Source: Caldicellulosiruptor kronotskyensis 2002 (lineage in GTDB: Bacteria; Bacillota; Thermoanaerobacteria; Caldicellulosiruptorales; Caldicellulosiruptoraceae). Taken from it: 64,000 nucleotides of DNA. Shown one piece after another: positions 8,115 to 47,477 of the stretch (the first letter of the stretch is position 1; the number at the start of each line of letters is the position of its first letter). The stretch lies in NCBI RefSeq assembly GCF_000166775.1, contig NC_014720.1, positions 2,698,001 through 2,762,000 of the forward strand, in the 5' to 3' direction. The position numbers and the translations under genes were made by a program. The notes under the pieces are model-generated. The model saw only the letters and a program-made list of their open reading frames with translations, ran no database searches and had not been told where the DNA came from.

Positions 8115-8312
8115 TGAAATGTTCAAATTGCTGAGGATAAAAAATTTTTAAAGTAAGTATGACACAAACTCTTGTATTTGTAGTTGTGGTAATTGGCATT
8201 AGTGCTTTTCTTCACGGCTACATCCCAACAGGTGCACTTGCAAAAATTGCTGGCAAGAACAATCCCTTTACTGTGGTATTTGTAACTTTACTTGGAATAC
8301 TCCTTTACTCAT
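8115..8312 (+). pseudogene. Fragment of an ArsP-type permease gene
   Basis: About 200 bp match the 3' third of the intact permease gene at 10430-11401 (compare 10950-11190). Both read HGYIPTGALAKIAGKNNPF and then leave homology after LLYS. The 5' part of the match, around 8115-8155, is interrupted by a frame break and a deletion. An ATG at 8159 opens 71 codons, but there is no ribosome site and only part of two membrane helices would be made. It is best read as a gene remnant from a second, lost copy of the permease locus. Confidence 0.8.
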
Positions 8313-9239: not shown

Positions 9240-10020
9240 TACAAATTTTCTCCTTTCTTACACTAACACCTCTTCCCTGCCTCTGATTTAATTATACCAC
9301 AAGCCAGCGTATTCTGTGTTAAAAAATATGAACATACAATTGAACCACTAAAATCATTAGAATTAATCTTTTTCTCACTTTTCTGCTTTGACTTAACTTT
9401 GTCCCTGCCTTAAAAGTTTTTTGATTTATATTGGATATTAGAAATTAATATTTGCAATCATTATTATTGGTATTTTTCTAAATTGACTCAACGCTAAAAG
9501 CCTATGCGCTGTCCTGCGCCGAATTAATATACTGCACAAATTTAGCTACAGACTCTAATCTCCAACCAACAAATTTTTTGTCTATTTTCTTTTTCTATTT
9601 TTCATTAATCACCATATCCCACATCAGTTTAATTTTAAAGGTTCCCCATTAATAGACATGGTTGAACTCACAATATTATTTAAAAACTAAATTAAAACCA
9701 AATAAACTTAAACATTCGTTTGGTATCATATCTAACCTGAATAGCAGCTTTTGTTTATAGTAATATATCTTTGTTATGTAATGAATATTTTTGTAATAAT
9801 TTATTTGTGTATATGAAATAATTATTTTTATCGATTTTTTCATATCAACCCAGCAATTTTTTCACATTACTTTATGCCGACAAACATAAATATAAACCCT
9901 TTTTCTCAGTAATTTAAACTTTTATTCAGCTGGTTATACTCTTTAAAAGCTTTGACTTCAAAACAGAACTTGCTCTGCAATATTCTATTCATTAAATAAT
10001 TTTACTTGCTTTTTTGTGAT
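9240..10020. other. Long gene-free stretch
   Basis: No open frame with a ribosome site and no recognisable gene remnant was found on either strand. The composition is strongly AT-rich. The - strand promoter of the PIN gene should lie near 9240-9300. Confidence 0.5.
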
Positions 10021-10060
10021 TATTAGTTTATTATATAATTAAATGCTTATAAACTAATTA

Positions 10061-10119
10061 AAAGAGAGGTGCAAAAAGCACAACTCTTTCTTTTAAAGCT
10101 GAAAAAAGAAAGATTGTGC
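10061..10119 (+). promoter_or_regulatory. Two mutually exclusive hairpins in the arsR leader
   Basis: Segment 2 (10078-10094, starting GCACAACTCTTTC) can pair with segment 1 (10061-10072, AAAGAGAGGTGC) or, more extensively, with segment 3 (10104-10119, ending GATTGTGC): a 16-bp stem with one bulged C and a 9-nt loop. The two pairings share the same bases and cannot coexist. Segment 3 ends 8 nt before the arsR start codon and contains the only purine-rich stretch that could serve as ribosome site. A TATAAT at 10034-10039 lies upstream. This looks like a translational switch, by structure only. Confidence 0.5.
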
Positions 10120-10126
10120 GAAAAAT

Positions 10127-10423
10127 ATGTCTATGGAAGAAAGGCTTGCAAAGGTGTTCAAAGCGCTTTCTCACCCAATTAGAATAAAGATAGTTCAAAA
10201 CCTTTTGAGCGGTGAAAAGTGCGTATGTGACCTTTTACAGTTTGTTGAATTTTCTCAACCAAATTTATCTCAACATTTAAAAATCTTAAAAGAGGCTGGT
10301 TTGCTTGAACACCGCAAAGTGGGTGCAAATATGCATTACAGGATTAAAAATGAATATGTCAAGGCTTTGCTGAATATAGCAGAAAAATTCATAATTGAGA
10401 GCCAAAATTTTGAAAGGATGTGA
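10127..10423 (+). CDS. ArsR/SmtB-family metalloregulator
   Basis: A 98-residue winged-helix repressor: KVFKALSHPIRIKIVQNL, then CVCDL at the first helix of the DNA-binding motif (the cysteine pair that binds As(III) or a soft metal in ArsR), the recognition helix SQPNLSQHLKILKEAGLL and wing HRKVGANMHYRI. It leads an operon with a permease and a thioredoxin-like protein, the usual context for arsenic or metal-responsive control. It is probably autoregulated. Its mRNA leader has unusual alternative hairpins. Confidence 0.92.
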   Translation: MSMEERLAKVFKALSHPIRIKIVQNLLSGEKCVCDLLQFVEFSQPNLSQHLKILKEAGLLEHRKVGANMHYRIKNEYVKALLNIAEKFIIESQNFERM

Positions 10424-10429
10424 TAGAAT

Positions 10430-11401
10430 TTGTTTTTCCCCGTTCAAAAATTTGCTGATTTTGTGACATACACTGTTTTCAAAATCCCGCAGGGTTCAAA
10501 ACTTGCAAGTGCTGTAAACTTTTTTATATTTGACACAATCAAAATTTTCATTCTGCTATTTTTGATTGTATTTGTGATAACCTTTATAAGAAGCTTTTTC
10601 TCACCAGAAAAGACAAGAGAAATTCTTTCACACAAAAAACAAAATATCTTCCTTGCCCACATTTTAGCAGCACTTTTAGGAATTGTGACGCCATTTTGTT
10701 CGTGCTCAGCAGTTCCGCTTTTTATCGGATTTGTTGAAGCAGGCATTCCACTTGGTGTGACATTTTCGTACCTGATTGCTGCCCCAATGGTAAATGAGGT
10801 GGCGCTTGGACTTTTATATGCAAATTTTGGTCTTAAAATCGCTCTCATCTATGTCCTGTCAGGTGAGATAATTGCAATTGTAAGTGGCATCCTAATTGGA
10901 AAGCTTAATCTTGAAAAATATGTTGAGGACTATGTTTTTAAAATCAAAGTTGGAAACGTCCAGATTGCTGAGGACAAAAAAACTTTAAATCAGCGTCTCA
11001 AAGAAACACTGGAATTTACCATTGAGCTTATAAAAAAGGTATGGGTATTTGTTGTAGTAGGAATTGGTATTGGTGCATTCTTGCATGGCTACATCCCAAC
11101 AGGAGCACTGGCAAAGATTGCTGGTAAGAACAATCCTTTTGCTGTAATTTTTGCAACAGCACTTGGAATACCTCTTTATTCTAACGCAGCAGGAATAATT
11201 CCACTTGTGAGTGAATTCAGACGCCTCGGGGTTTCGATGGGAACATCACTCTCTTTCATGATGAGTGTAACAGCCCTATCTTTGCCTGAGATGATACTTC
11301 TTCGCAGGGTGTTAAAGCCAAAGCTTCTTGGAATATTTGTGGCAATTGTGGGCTGTGGAATAATTATAACAGGGTATCTATTTAACCTTATTCTTGGATA
11401 A
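10430..11401 (+). CDS. arsP: ArsP/DUF318-type permease
   Basis: A 323-residue membrane protein of about eight helices with the family hallmark TPFCSCSAVPLFIGF near residues 85-100 (the Cys motif thought to take part in organoarsenical handling) and a repeat-related segment GYIPTGALAKIAGKNNPF in the second half. ArsP exports trivalent organoarsenicals such as methyl- or aromatic arsenite; related SO_0444 members are described as metal effluxers, so the substrate is open. It starts at TTG 10430, 7 nt after the arsR stop, with GAAAGGATG upstream. Confidence 0.88.
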   Translation: MFFPVQKFADFVTYTVFKIPQGSKLASAVNFFIFDTIKIFILLFLIVFVITFIRSFFSPEKTREILSHKKQNIFLAHILAALLGIVTPFCSCSAVPLFIGFVEAGIPLGVTFSYLIAAPMVNEVALGLLYANFGLKIALIYVLSGEIIAIVSGILIGKLNLEKYVEDYVFKIKVGNVQIAEDKKTLNQRLKETLEFTIELIKKVWVFVVVGIGIGAFLHGYIPTGALAKIAGKNNPFAVIFATALGIPLYSNAAGIIPLVSEFRRLGVSMGTSLSFMMSVTALSLPEMILLRRVLKPKLLGIFVAIVGCGIIITGYLFNLILG

Positions 11402-11433: not shown

Positions 11434-11679
11434 ATGGTTATAAAAGTTCTTGGTGGTGGATGTGCAAACTGTAAAAAACTAATGGAAAATGCTAAAAAGG
11501 CAGCTGAGGAGCTTGGAATTGAGGCTCATTTTGAAGAGGTAAAAGACATCGAAAAGATAATGTCTTACGGTGTTATGAGAACGCCTGCTCTTGTTGTTGA
11601 TGAAAAGCTCATATTCTCAGGCAGGGTTACAGGTGTTGAGGAAATAAAAGAAATTTTGAAAAAAGAGGCAGGAAAGTGA
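11434..11679 (+). CDS. Thioredoxin-like redox protein (redox-active disulfide protein 2 family)
   Basis: An 81-residue thioredoxin-fold mini protein with active site GGGCANCKKL and the cis-proline segment RTPALVVDEK. This family very often sits beside ArsP-like permeases in anaerobes. It may reduce the permease or its cargo; that role is inferred. A good ribosome site (AAGGGAAGGTG) precedes ATG 11434. The gene is followed by a strong terminator. Confidence 0.9.
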   Translation: MVIKVLGGGCANCKKLMENAKKAAEELGIEAHFEEVKDIEKIMSYGVMRTPALVVDEKLIFSGRVTGVEEIKEILKKEAGK

Positions 11680-11836: not shown

Positions 11837-13195
11837 TCACTGTGTACACTGTTGCCTGCCCTGTTTAGACTCAGAACTACTCAAACTCCTGGTCAACCAA
11901 ACTGTGCACATTAGCACATGTTTGGCGGCTGGGGTACTTGTAGTCCGCCCATCAAAGCTTTCCCAGCCCCAGCAGGCGGTATTTGGGAAAGCCATAGCCC
12001 CTGCCCCAAGAAGCAGCATATAATTGTGCGGTATCCTTTCTCTCAAGCCAAGGCCTCTTCGCGCTATTACATACGCTGCCGCAATATCCTTGCTCACCAT
12101 AAACTGCGGTGCATACTTCAACATACCTATTACCGAAGTATACGCAGGGTCTACTTCTATAACCTCTACTCCTTCCCGTTTTGCCAGAAGTTTTACCTTT
12201 TCCAAAAGTGACCTGTACCCAAAATAGTGCCTTATCCGTCTTGATTTTCTACCTGAAAAATCTCCTCTTCTGCCCCTGTCCTGTATGCTAAGGTTCTCAA
12301 TCACTATCGCTTTTTTCTTCTCTTTCGCCATTTGTACTATCATGTGTGCATACTGCCACCTGTAATACTCTCTCTTGCTTGAGCTTCCACTCTCAAGCTT
12401 CTCAAGTGGTATTCTGCCATATCCCAGAAACTGTCCGTACTCATCTGTTTCTGCCCATGCAACATTCTTTGGATATGCGTTAGTGTCTATCCCTATAACT
12501 CCATTTGCTCTCGTTATCGCAGGCTTGGGGAAAACTTCTTCAACGGTGAAGTAGGCATATACTACACCGTTTTTGAGTTTCAGTTCTACAGAATAAGGTT
12601 CACTTGAGCTGCTTATCGCTTGTAGCAGTAGGTTCCTATCCATGTATGTCTTACCTTTCATCTTCCATCCACCTTGTATCGTCGCATATACGTACTCTCT
12701 TTCCCCTACATTAATCCTGAGTTTTGTGAAGTTTCCGTCTATCTCAATCCTTGTATTGAGATTCCCATTTTTGCTCCTGTCTCCTCTTGAGTACAGACTC
12801 CCCTTCCTTTTCTCCTGCCACTTAAGTTGAAGTTTCCTATTTGCTTTGCCGTTTATGTGCCGCCTCTTTAGTTTTTCAAAAAGTTGCCTACCACCAAAAA
12901 TGACCTTTTCAGGATTTTCTCCTCTTTCTTTGCATGAGGTCAAAATGCTTTTTGCTTTCATTATTGCATCATCAACGTATCGGGAATTAAGATTAAAAAT
13001 TCCTTGCAGCTGCCTTTTGAGTTCATTCCTTTTGTGACCTTCAAGTAACCTCTTGTATGCATACCTCATACAAGAGGACCATCTTCTCATAAGGTCTAAT
13101 ACTTTTTGCTTATCTTTGCTGCTGTCAAAAATTAGCTTAGCCTGAACTGTTACCATGTCTTTTAGCACCTCTTTGTCAGTAAATTCTTGCTGCAA
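11837..13195 (-). CDS. tnpB: TnpB, RNA-guided nuclease of an IS607 element
   Basis: A 452-residue TnpB with RuvC-like catalytic centre: Asp in GVIGIDTNAYP, Glu in AIVIENLSI, and the last Asp in VSKDIAAAYVIARRG. The CxxC...CxxC zinc ribbon usual between the second and third motifs is absent; the segment reads DPAYTSVIGMLKYAPQF instead, as in the zinc-less TnpB subgroup. TnpB proteins cut the donor site after excision, guided by an RNA from the element end. The first codons overlap tnpA by 20 bp. A Met 13 residues in (MVTVQAKL) could be the true start. Confidence 0.88.
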   Translation of the reverse strand: MQQEFTDKEVLKDMVTVQAKLIFDSSKDKQKVLDLMRRWSSCMRYAYKRLLEGHKRNELKRQLQGIFNLNSRYVDDAIMKAKSILTSCKERGENPEKVIFGGRQLFEKLKRRHINGKANRKLQLKWQEKRKGSLYSRGDRSKNGNLNTRIEIDGNFTKLRINVGEREYVYATIQGGWKMKGKTYMDRNLLLQAISSSSEPYSVELKLKNGVVYAYFTVEEVFPKPAITRANGVIGIDTNAYPKNVAWAETDEYGQFLGYGRIPLEKLESGSSSKREYYRWQYAHMIVQMAKEKKKAIVIENLSIQDRGRRGDFSGRKSRRIRHYFGYRSLLEKVKLLAKREGVEVIEVDPAYTSVIGMLKYAPQFMVSKDIAAAYVIARRGLGLRERIPHNYMLLLGAGAMAFPNTACWGWESFDGRTTSTPAAKHVLMCTVWLTRSLSSSESKQGRQQCTQ

Positions 13196-13730
13196 AAGAT
13201 GTTACTATCGCTATTAAGTCCTCTGCCAGTTCTCTGTTAATATCTTCTTCGTTTTCTCTGCCATTTAACACTATAAGTTCTACCCCAAAACTCTCCATGA
13301 AAAACTTAAGATATTCAAATCCAAACCTTGCAAGTCTGTCGGGATACTCTATTACAACTTTTGCAACTTCTCCTCTTTTGATTTTGTTCAAAAGTCTTAA
13401 TAGTCCTCTCCTGTTTTCATTCACTCCGCTGGCTATTTCAGATATAACTTCATACTGCCAACCTTGCGACTTGGCATATTCTTCAAGTCTTCTAATTTGG
13501 TTTTTAAGGTACTCTTCTTGCTTTTTAGTGGAGACTCTTGCATACAAAACAACGGTTGGTTTTGGTTTTTCCTCTATCATACCAAGTAGCTTTTCTATGT
13601 CTTCTTTTTTATACCTTCTCCTTCCCTTCGGTGTCCTGAGAGGTGCTATTAACCCTTCCTTCTCCCAGTTTATTAGTGTTCTTCGGCAGATAGCATGTAT
13701 CTCTTTAATTTTTTGAATACTTAGCAACAT
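13176..13730 (-). CDS. tnpA: IS607-family serine recombinase TnpA
   Basis: A 184-residue protein with an N-terminal MerR-like helix-turn-helix (CRRTLINWEKEGLIAP then GRRRYKKEDI) and a serine-recombinase catalytic domain: nucleophile Ser in LYARVSTKKQ, and Arg residues in YPDRLARFGFEY. This order, DNA-binding domain first, is specific to IS607 transposases. It catalyses strand exchange through a covalent 5'-phosphoserine link with little target specificity. Confidence 0.92.
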   Translation of the reverse strand: MLLSIQKIKEIHAICRRTLINWEKEGLIAPLRTPKGRRRYKKEDIEKLLGMIEEKPKPTVVLYARVSTKKQEEYLKNQIRRLEEYAKSQGWQYEVISEIASGVNENRRGLLRLLNKIKRGEVAKVVIEYPDRLARFGFEYLKFFMESFGVELIVLNGRENEEDINRELAEDLIAIVTSFAARIY

Positions 13731-14861: not shown

Positions 14862-15257
14862 ATGTCTGACAAATACCAGCAAAGAAGATTTGACATCTAT
14901 GGGTATGAAAAGATTGACACAGAGGTCTTAGAAGCAATCCCTTATGAATACCCTGAAAAGAACACGGTAGTGGAATATATCACAGAAGAGTTTTCATCAG
15001 TCTGTCCATGGACAGGTCTTCCTGATACTGCAAAGCTCACAATTCGATATATCCCTCACCAAAAACTTGTTGAGCTAAAATCTCTCAAGTATTATCTTAC
15101 CTCATACAGAAACGTTGGGATACTGCAGGAACATGCAGTAAATAGAATCCTTGATGACCTTGTAAAACTGCTTGAGCCAAAGTTTATGGAAGTGATTGGA
15201 GAGTTCCATGAACGTGGAGGAATATCAACAAAAGTAGTGGCAAGGTACGAAAAATAA
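14862..15257 (+). CDS. queF: NADPH-dependent 7-cyano-7-deazaguanine reductase QueF (riboswitch-controlled copy)
   Basis: A 131-residue unimodular QueF that reduces preQ0 to preQ1 in queuosine biosynthesis. The catalytic Cys lies in [14 protein letters not shown] with the conserved Asp after it, and the QueF motif is [17 protein letters not shown] 14862 follows AAAGGAG by 8 nt. The frame is open further upstream, but that would run through the riboswitch. No other queuosine genes adjoin it. A second gene encoding the identical protein lies at 18728-19123. Confidence 0.95.
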
Positions 15258-15273
15258 CACCTTGCCACTTTTT
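15237..15273 (+). terminator. Terminator overlapping the 3' end of queF (copy 1)
   Basis: GTGGCAAGGT inside the last codons pairs with ACCTTGCCAC just after the stop, followed by five T. The stop codon is in the loop. Confidence 0.88.
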
Positions 15274-15449
15274 ACTTTTATAATGCGATTGGAGGTTTTG
15301 ATATATGCCTAAATTCATTGTATTTAAAGATTTACTTTGAATCCTCAACCTTGGTTTTACGTATGCAATATGCAAGTGAACAACGTAAATTTAATAGCTA
15401 TTAGAGTAAATACTCTTTGGAAAACTGAACTGTCCAGTATATATAAAAA

Positions 15450-18727: not shown

Positions 18728-19123
18728 ATGTCTGACAAATACCAGCAAAGAAGATTTGACATCTATGGGTATGAAAAGATTGACACAGAGGTCTTAGAAG
18801 CAATCCCCTATGAATATCCTGAAAAGAACACGGTAGTGGAATATATCACAGAAGAGTTTTCATCAGTCTGTCCATGGACAGGTCTTCCTGATACTGCAAA
18901 GCTCACAATTCGATATATCCCTCACCAAAAACTTGTTGAGCTAAAATCTCTCAAGTATTATCTTACTTCATACAGAAACGTTGGGATACTGCAGGAACAT
19001 GCAGTAAATAGAATCCTTGATGACCTTGTAAAACTGCTTGAGCCAAAGTTTATGGAAGTGATTGGAGAGTTCCATGAACGTGGAGGAATATCAACAAAAG
19101 TAGTGGCAAGGTACGAAAAATAA
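18728..19123 (+). CDS. queF: QueF, second copy without riboswitch
   Basis: This gene encodes exactly the same 131 residues as the queF at 14862-15257 and differs from it by only a few silent changes (for example CCCTTATGAATACCCT versus CCCCTATGAATATCCT). The match begins at the start codon and ends just after the terminator. The preQ1 riboswitch and ribosome site of the first copy are missing; upstream is AAACTTTTTGCAAATTCT, with no Shine-Dalgarno sequence. It may be poorly translated or silent. If expressed it would escape preQ1 control. Confidence 0.85.
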
Positions 19124-19140
19124 CACCTTGCCACTTTTTT
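19103..19140 (+). terminator. Terminator overlapping the 3' end of queF (copy 2)
   Basis: The same stem as after the first copy, GTGGCAAGGT with ACCTTGCCAC, followed here by six T. Confidence 0.85.
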
Positions 19141-26914: not shown

Positions 26915-27099
26915 ACTTTTGTATTTACCAATTGCTGTCGACCTGAAATCCCCCCAAAAACCCCCGGGGGTCGACAGCAAAAGGTAATTTCTGGTATGTG
27001 TTGACTTTCATGCTTTTGAGGTGTATAATAGAAACAACATACTGCAGCTTGAAAACTTAACCATTTGTTCCTTGTGGCATTTTTCAACCTATCCACGGG
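26915..27099 (+). promoter_or_regulatory. CRISPR leader 1 with consensus promoter and inverted repeat
   Basis: The 185 bp before array 1 are almost identical to the leaders of arrays 2 and 3. They hold TTGACT (27001-27006), a 17-bp spacer and TATAAT (27024-27029), a near-perfect housekeeping promoter firing into the array about 60 bp before the first repeat. Upstream of it, TTGCTGTCGACC (26932-26943) and GGTCGACAGCAA (26969-26980) form a perfect 12-bp inverted repeat around a C-rich loop ending in CCCCCGGG. Confidence 0.92.
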
Positions 27100-36928: not shown

Positions 36929-37112
36929 ACTTTTGTATTTACCAATTGCTGTCGACCTGAAATCCCCCCAAAAACCCCCGGGGGTCGACAGCAAAAGGTA
37001 ATTTCTGGTATGTGTTGACTTTCATGCTTTTGAGGTGTATAATAGAAATAACATACTGCAGCTTGAAAACTTAACCATTTGTTCCTTGTGGCATTCTTCA
37101 ACCTATCCACGG
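36929..37112 (+). promoter_or_regulatory. CRISPR leader 2
   Basis: Nearly identical to leader 1 from ACTTTTGTATTTACC onward. Promoter TTGACT 37015-37020, 17 bp, TATAAT 37038-37043. The same 12-bp inverted repeat with the CCCCCGGGGG core is present about 40-85 bp upstream of the promoter. Confidence 0.92.
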
Positions 37113-47296: not shown

Positions 47297-47477
47297 TTTG
47301 TAGTTTCCAATTGCTGTCGACCTGAAATCCCCCCAAAAACCCCCGGGGGTCGACAGCAAAAGGTAATTTCTGGTATGTGTTGACTTTCATGCTTTTGAGG
47401 TGTATAATAGAAATAACATACTACAGCTTGAAAACTTAACCATTTGTTCCTTGTGACATTCTTCAACCTATCCACGG
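47297..47477 (+). promoter_or_regulatory. CRISPR leader 3
   Basis: Matches leaders 1 and 2 from TTCCAATTGCTGTCGACC onward, with promoter TTGACT 47380-47385, 17 bp, TATAAT 47403-47408, and the same inverted repeat. The outermost 15 bp differ, so the conserved leader is about 180 bp long. Confidence 0.92.

Follow-up and report, generated by a model that had tools for sequence, protein, structure and literature searches.

A hairpin between the Shine-Dalgarno sequence and the start codon of arsR in Caldicellulosiruptor kronotskyensis points to a probable split ribosome-binding site

In phage T4, two genes carry a Shine-Dalgarno (SD) sequence that is too distant from the start codon and is given a working distance by an intervening RNA structure. 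As summarised in one account (PMC3014915, citing Nivinskas 1999; Malys and Nivinskas 2009), this structure cuts the gap between SD and AUG from 22 to 5 nt in gene 38, and according to the same source from 27 to 11 nt in gene 25; initiation of both genes drops when the structure is destabilised. As far as that source describes it, the gene 25 arrangement is confined to close T-even phages, more distant relatives being without the hairpin (PMC3014915). Here, we describe a leader of similar layout ahead of arsR in C. kronotskyensis, with a distant SD that an intervening hairpin would bring within reach of the AUG and, as for T4 gene 25, a hairpin that is present in some relatives and missing in others. 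It differs from the T4 genes in its dimensions (a linear gap of 55 nt versus 22 and 27, and a residual gap of 13 nt versus 5 and 11), in having, upstream, an alternative stem able to bury the SD, and in being the leader of a bacterial chromosomal repressor gene from an extreme thermophile, analysed here by sequence and computation. To our knowledge, hairpin-bridged ribosome sites are known only from phage T4, and a partial literature search, mostly of titles and the beginnings of abstracts, found neither this leader nor such a site in a bacterial chromosomal gene. Translational riboswitches and RNA thermometers share with the arsR leader the alternative pairings at the ribosome site and the temperature-sensitive predicted stability, whereas in the arsR leader the stable stem leaves the SD free, and neither an Rfam match nor covariation was found.

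The window, that is, the whole stretch of 64,000 nt that was analysed, corresponds to positions 2698001-2762000 of the 2,843,785-base genome (G000 in our set). Best growth of the genus Caldicellulosiruptor is given as 65-78 °C in PMC3425538. The first gene of the operon encodes a protein that scored 55.4 bits against PF01022 (cut-off 22) and 95.6 bits against NF033788 (cut-off 55), which places it in the ArsR/SmtB family. As in other ArsR/SmtB ars operons, the repressor gene comes first and is followed by genes for an ArsP permease and an ArsE-type thioredoxin, with an operator-like palindrome in the promoter (Table 1). What sets this form of the operon apart is the hairpin between SD and AUG, whereas five orthologues have a short leader and a normal SD.

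Table 1. Features of the arsR leader and operon (window coordinates).
Feature	Coordinates	Strand	Basis
Promoter: -35 TTGCTT (10006-10011), 17 nt, -10 TATTAT (10029-10034)	10006-10034	+	sequence
TATAA-N8-TTATA palindrome over the -10, candidate ArsR operator	10034-10051	.	sequence
Segment 1: 5' arm of stem 1, includes the SD	10061-10072	+	sequence, pairing
Shine-Dalgarno GAGGTG	10066-10071	+	best anti-SD match
Segment 2: common to stem 1 and stem 2	10078-10089	+	sequence, pairing
Stem 2 hairpin, 42 nt: arms 10078-10094 / 10104-10119, 9-nt loop, C84 bulged	10078-10119	+	
Single-stranded spacer GAAAAAT ahead of the start codon	10120-10126	+	sequence
arsR, ArsR/SmtB repressor, 98 aa, starts ATG	10127-10423	+	ORF, HMM
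arsP-type permease (PF03773)	10430-11401	+	ORF, HMM
Thioredoxin-like MTH895/ArsE family protein	11434-11679	+	ORF, HMM

A -35 element beginning with TTG and a TATTAT -10 element, 16-17 nt apart, were also recognised by eye in 10 other Caldicellulosiruptor operons with or without the hairpin; the C. kronotskyensis promoter was absent from the output of a generic promoter scanner. Judged from its position, transcription would start at approximately 10041-10046. The palindrome block is mostly retained across the genus and is a putative ArsR operator. In the genomes that carry the hairpin, no in-frame ATG, GTG or TTG lies upstream of the start codon. The ATG at 10133 was rejected as the arsR start, being ACG in genome G002; the GTG at 10069, which opens an out-of-frame ORF without an SD of its own, and a 4-codon ATG ORF at 10043, inside the operator block, were both set aside on sequence alone. 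The surroundings of the operon contain a decayed second arsP fragment about 2 kb 5' of the intact operon (8116-8310, 80-84% nucleotide identity to arsP) and, just 3' of it on the minus strand, two adjoining ORFs, putatively TnpB-like and serine-recombinase-like (11837-13730), in an arrangement resembling that of an IS607-type element.

The preliminary description of this locus had proposed that the middle segment of the leader pairs either upstream or downstream, the two pairings being mutually exclusive and the downstream one comprising 16 bp with one bulge, and both sequence inspection and shuffle tests bear this out. Stem 1 joins 10061-10066 to 10084-10089 and 10069-10072 to 10078-10081, giving 10 bp with a 2x2 internal loop. 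Stem 2 joins 10078-10083 to 10114-10119 and 10085-10094 to 10104-10113, and its end is separated from the ATG by 7 unpaired nt. The stems exclude each other because both use 10078-10089, where all positions but 10082-10084 are paired in both. The minimum free energy of the region 10040-10140 was -21.4 kcal/mol (z -3.6), a value reached by none of 200 shuffles, and that of 10046-10126 was -17.0 kcal/mol, with 23 of 5000 shuffles as low. The upstream pairing also exceeded chance: when 10078-10103 was held fixed and 10046-10077 shuffled, 38 of 5000 sequences folded as well, the best fold in this test being stem 1 in a slightly extended register.

Folded alone, stem 2 has a predicted energy of -15.6 kcal/mol at 37 °C and -2.0 at 75 °C, and stem 1 of -11.4 and -1.2 kcal/mol, respectively. 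At equilibrium, stem 2 was the dominant form at all temperatures tried up to 80 °C, with stem 1 as a minor form. Pairing probabilities of four probed stem 2 pairs were 0.92-0.99 at 37 °C and 0.46-0.76 at 75 °C, and three of the four still reached 0.54-0.60 at 80 °C before falling to 0.32-0.40 at 85 °C; three probed pairs of stem 1 gave 0.005-0.008 at 37 °C and 0.04-0.18 at 75 °C. No Rfam family reached its gathering threshold in the leader, and we rejected the idea of a known riboswitch, as the four sub-threshold matches were at chance level (E 0.41-2.5).

The leader was scored against the bacterial consensus anti-SD; this assembly yielded no 16S gene. Within 80 nt 5' of arsR, the strongest 9-mer was GAGAGGTGC at 10064-10072 (-9.4 kcal/mol), while 9-mers beginning at 10078-10117, inside the hairpin, reached -1.4 at best. 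The SD thus lies outside and 5' of the hairpin, and the stem does not contain it. From GAGGTG to the AUG there are 55 nt of linear sequence, reduced to 6 + 7 = 13 unpaired nt with the hairpin folded. All seven genomes that carry the hairpin had their best 9-mer at the same place (-8.5 to -9.6), ending 54 nt before the AUG, with a best proximal match of -1.4; the only change in the SD among them is A67 to G in G005, which gives GGGGTG and a 9-mer of still -8.5. In all seven carriers, then, a long gap without a proximal SD is filled by a hairpin lying wholly between SD and AUG, as in the T4-type split sites.

These results change the sense of the earlier model, in which the downstream stem hides the only ribosome site and a signal shifts the pairing upstream, turning translation on. 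That model can draw on the fact that both exclusive pairings are better than chance, on the position of the stem 2 end within the expected ribosome footprint, and on a weak purine run, AAAGAAAGA, in the 3' arm. We nevertheless judge it improbable, as anti-SD binding inside the hairpin is far weaker than outside, the better SD would be buried by the upstream stem, one pair of stem 1 is broken in G005, and five operons lack the arrangement altogether. According to the predicted folding, the polarity is probably the reverse, with stem 1 hiding the SD and stem 2 freeing it and bringing it near the AUG.

The reading that we favour, with moderate confidence, is a split ribosome-binding site like those of T4 genes 25 and 38, in which the hairpin brings SD and AUG together. 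Bridging is supported, at the level of sequence and computation, by the pairings, the SD outside the hairpin, the normal SD of hairpin-free orthologues and the invariance of the stem. Mechanistically, the folded hairpin would bulge out and allow one 30S subunit to hold both elements, given that they are 13 unpaired nt apart once it has folded, so that the ribosome might use the SD across the hairpin. The workability of this distance is the weak point: optimum spacing between SD and start is given as 7-8 nt in PMC4619774, and the residual 13 nt exceeds both this optimum and the 11 nt of gene 25, which counts against bridging. Besides the 13-nt gap, our confidence is kept only somewhat above even by the marginal stability predicted for stem 2 at 75 °C, by the indirect placement of the 5' end and by an SD that pairs in part with the start region.

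To place this site in its genomic context, we analysed about 444 kb of the genome, consisting of 19 stretches of 20 kb and the window. Among 350 ORFs of at least 110 codons, a length that leaves arsR out, 315 reached -4 or better with a proximal SD (the median being -8.2, versus -2.25 at random mid-gene positions), which is an upper estimate because starts were chosen partly by their SD; 35 were without a proximal SD of -4. Three split-site candidates from this set were judged unconvincing. In a second scan of 399 ORFs, from 80 codons up, 77 had no proximal SD at any early start, and arsR ranked first as a split site (hairpin of -17.0 at the ATG 10127), followed by three weaker ones. We also scanned other ArsR homologues (80 loci plus L140 and L141, three of them without a usable start) and found a proximal SD of -4 or better in 65 of 79, taking the best of several candidate starts. 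Among the 14 others, L081, L091 and L114 were split candidates by energy, and were unconvincing by eye.

Of 13 family genomes searched, 12 gave an ArsR match at E <= 1e-20, the exception at this threshold being G001. Neighbouring genes identified the same operon in all 12, with arsP in 12 of 12 and the thioredoxin gene in 11 (in G012 it was not found near arsR within the stretch taken). The hairpin is present in seven of these operons (G000, G002, G003, G004, G005, G006 and G011) and absent from five (G007, G008, G009, G010 and G012). In each of the five, the chosen start (ATG in four, TTG in G007) is preceded at a distance of 3-8 nt by the end of a 9-mer scoring -5.8 to -9.4. Removing 10073-10119 from the carriers leaves GAGGTG (GGGGTG in G005), 8 nt and ATG, that is, an ordinary site. 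Carrier leaders with these bases removed align clearly with that of hairpin-free G009, and those of G007, G008, G010 and G012 align less neatly between promoter block and start. The simplest reading of these alignments is that the hairpin was inserted between SD and AUG rather than lost.

Within the carriers, none of the 32 bases of stem 2 was variable. By comparison, 7 of the 32 other leader positions in 10063-10126 varied (Fisher p 0.011), as did 34 of the 96 third positions of arsR codons (Fisher p 1.3e-5); neither test takes the tree into account, nor are the seven leaders independent of one another. Variable sites include the bulge at 10084, the loop at 10098 and the spacers at 10077 and 10120. 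As stem 2 is invariant, no covariation is visible in it, which neither supports nor refutes it. For stem 1, the six distinct rows retained 59 of 60 pair cells, G-U wobbles accounting for three, one pair was broken in G005, and no pair had changed on both sides. Its energy across carriers ranged from -11.4 to -6.7 at 37 °C, and it was not predicted for G005 at 70 °C or for G003 and G005 at 75 °C. The proposal that compensatory base changes in relatives would reveal both stems yielded retained pairing without two-sided change. Conservation of the alternative pairing, the lack of which the preliminary description had named as refuting, gave a mixed result: the seven carriers keep it, and the other 5 of the 12 operons have neither this pairing nor any of the hairpin. 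What stands of the switch interpretation in the preliminary description is a structured leader with exclusive stems and the translation start as its likely target, while a regulatory switch is unsupported by compensatory change.

The same comparison bears on whether the hairpin is a tolerated insertion that lowers repressor translation, the AUG being reached by SD-independent initiation or from a 30S subunit on standby at the upstream SD. Orthologues without the hairpin exist, 35 of the 350 sampled ORFs likewise lack a proximal SD by the same measure, and the residual gap of 13 nt is long, all of which would suit such an explanation. It appears unlikely to us, as changes occur in loop, bulge, spacers and synonymous sites but nowhere in the stem, and the SD-like match is retained in 7 of 7 carriers. 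Bacterial mRNAs are often stabilised by 5' hairpins, and a 5' leader element for mRNA stability or protein binding, independent of SD spacing, would likewise account for a stem kept among carriers. Given that the hairpin falls precisely into the interval from SD to AUG in a site that is otherwise normal, and that the leader has no Rfam family at threshold, we regard this role as rather improbable.

Concerning the origin of the hairpin, segment 3 repeats segment 1 imperfectly in direct orientation, a score matched by 43 of 2000 shuffles, and GTGC(G)AAAAA flanks the inverted repeat on both sides like a 9-nt target duplication, both flanking copies reading GTGCAAAAA in G006. From these repeats, a local duplication or template switch would be a plausible origin. 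The flanking copies could also be taken to mean that the inverted repeat acts as DNA, either as a second ArsR operator or as the remnant of a tiny mobile element. This is very improbable in our view: the whole hairpin had no second copy in its own genome or in 12 genus genomes, where partial matches of 19-26 nt only were found, and operons without the hairpin retain the likely operator, which overlaps the -10. The same searches led us to reject the leader as a dispersed repeat or mobile hairpin. The best partial match in this genome covers 22 of 23 bases of segments 1-2 (10065-10087) at L002 1501-1523, on the non-coding strand of a coding gene (E 0.002) that is presumably hydG-like; the same part of the query was also matched in G001, G002, G006 and G009, and the similarity is probably due to chance. 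Other inverted repeats were noted in the window. One of 19 bp (TTACCAATTGCTGTCGACC ... GGTCGACAGCAAAAGGTAA, 25 nt apart) occurs at 26925-26987, 36939-37001 and 47304-47366, the third differing by one base, each time about 112 bp left of one of the window's three CRISPR arrays, and is perhaps a leader element. Two more (15223-15282 and 19097-19140) have a common core (AAAGTAGTGGCAAGGT / ACCTTGCCACTTTTT) and are possibly shared terminators or element ends.

The distribution of the hairpin did not follow the dnaA tree, in which each of the two deep clades of the genus contains carriers and the hairpin needs three changes. The ArsR protein tree needs two and the arsP tree one, the latter weakly supported (65/89; found in 66% of 200 bootstrap trees), and a single gain by simple descent was not supported. 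Compared with G000, the operon of G011 is 90% identical and its dnaA 82%, while for G010 these values are 80% and 85%. This conflict between operon and dnaA (L009-L019) indicates that operon and leader were probably exchanged as a unit between clades, and the seven leaders are consequently not seven independent tests.

Finally, we folded growing transcripts for three of the seven carriers (G000, G003 and G005). For G000 at 75 °C, SD exposure was 0.21-0.33 with 3' ends at 10089-10116 and rose to 0.56 at 10119 and 0.67 at 10122, being 0.56 with the start region present. At the same temperature, exposure in G003 went from 0.25-0.45 to 0.83 and then to 0.66 with the start region, and in G005 from 0.51-0.71 to 0.91 and then to 0.45. 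At 37 °C, G000 and G003 reached 0.70-0.90 at 10119-10126 and approximately 0.2 with the start region, and G005 stayed at about 0.34 before and after completion of stem 2, with 0.17 once the start region was included. In the G000 RNA 10046-10160, SD exposure with stem 2 blocked was 0.23 at 75 °C, compared with 0.57 unblocked, and 0.08 at 37 °C, compared with 0.21. As the upstream stem buries the SD, the downstream stem is the predicted ON state, most clearly at growth temperature. In the nascent RNA, stem 1 would form first and hide the SD, and completion of stem 2 would displace it and expose the SD. Melting of stem 2 would cost the bridge rather than expose the SD. One may extend this to a self-timed, heat-tuned translational switch, in which stem 1 buries the SD until transcription has gone beyond 10119, segment 3, which copies segment 1 imperfectly, then displaces segment 1 by strand exchange and the SD is at once carried to the AUG, and the bridge melts near 80 °C so that repressor synthesis falls; we put this forward very tentatively, as an unlikely elaboration.

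Related species have this operon either with or without the hairpin and so provide matched natural pairs. Among the carriers, G002 has an 8291-base contig of which 3.5 kb were compared and are 100% identical to a plasmid of Caldicellulosiruptor bescii DSM 6725, and genetic tools for C. bescii are described in PMC10434631. The split-site mechanism would thereby become testable in a bacterium with growth near 70-78 °C, and the locus would reveal in what way a sequence inserted between SD and AUG can be tolerated. It also cautions that a seemingly missing proximal SD may be looped to the start.
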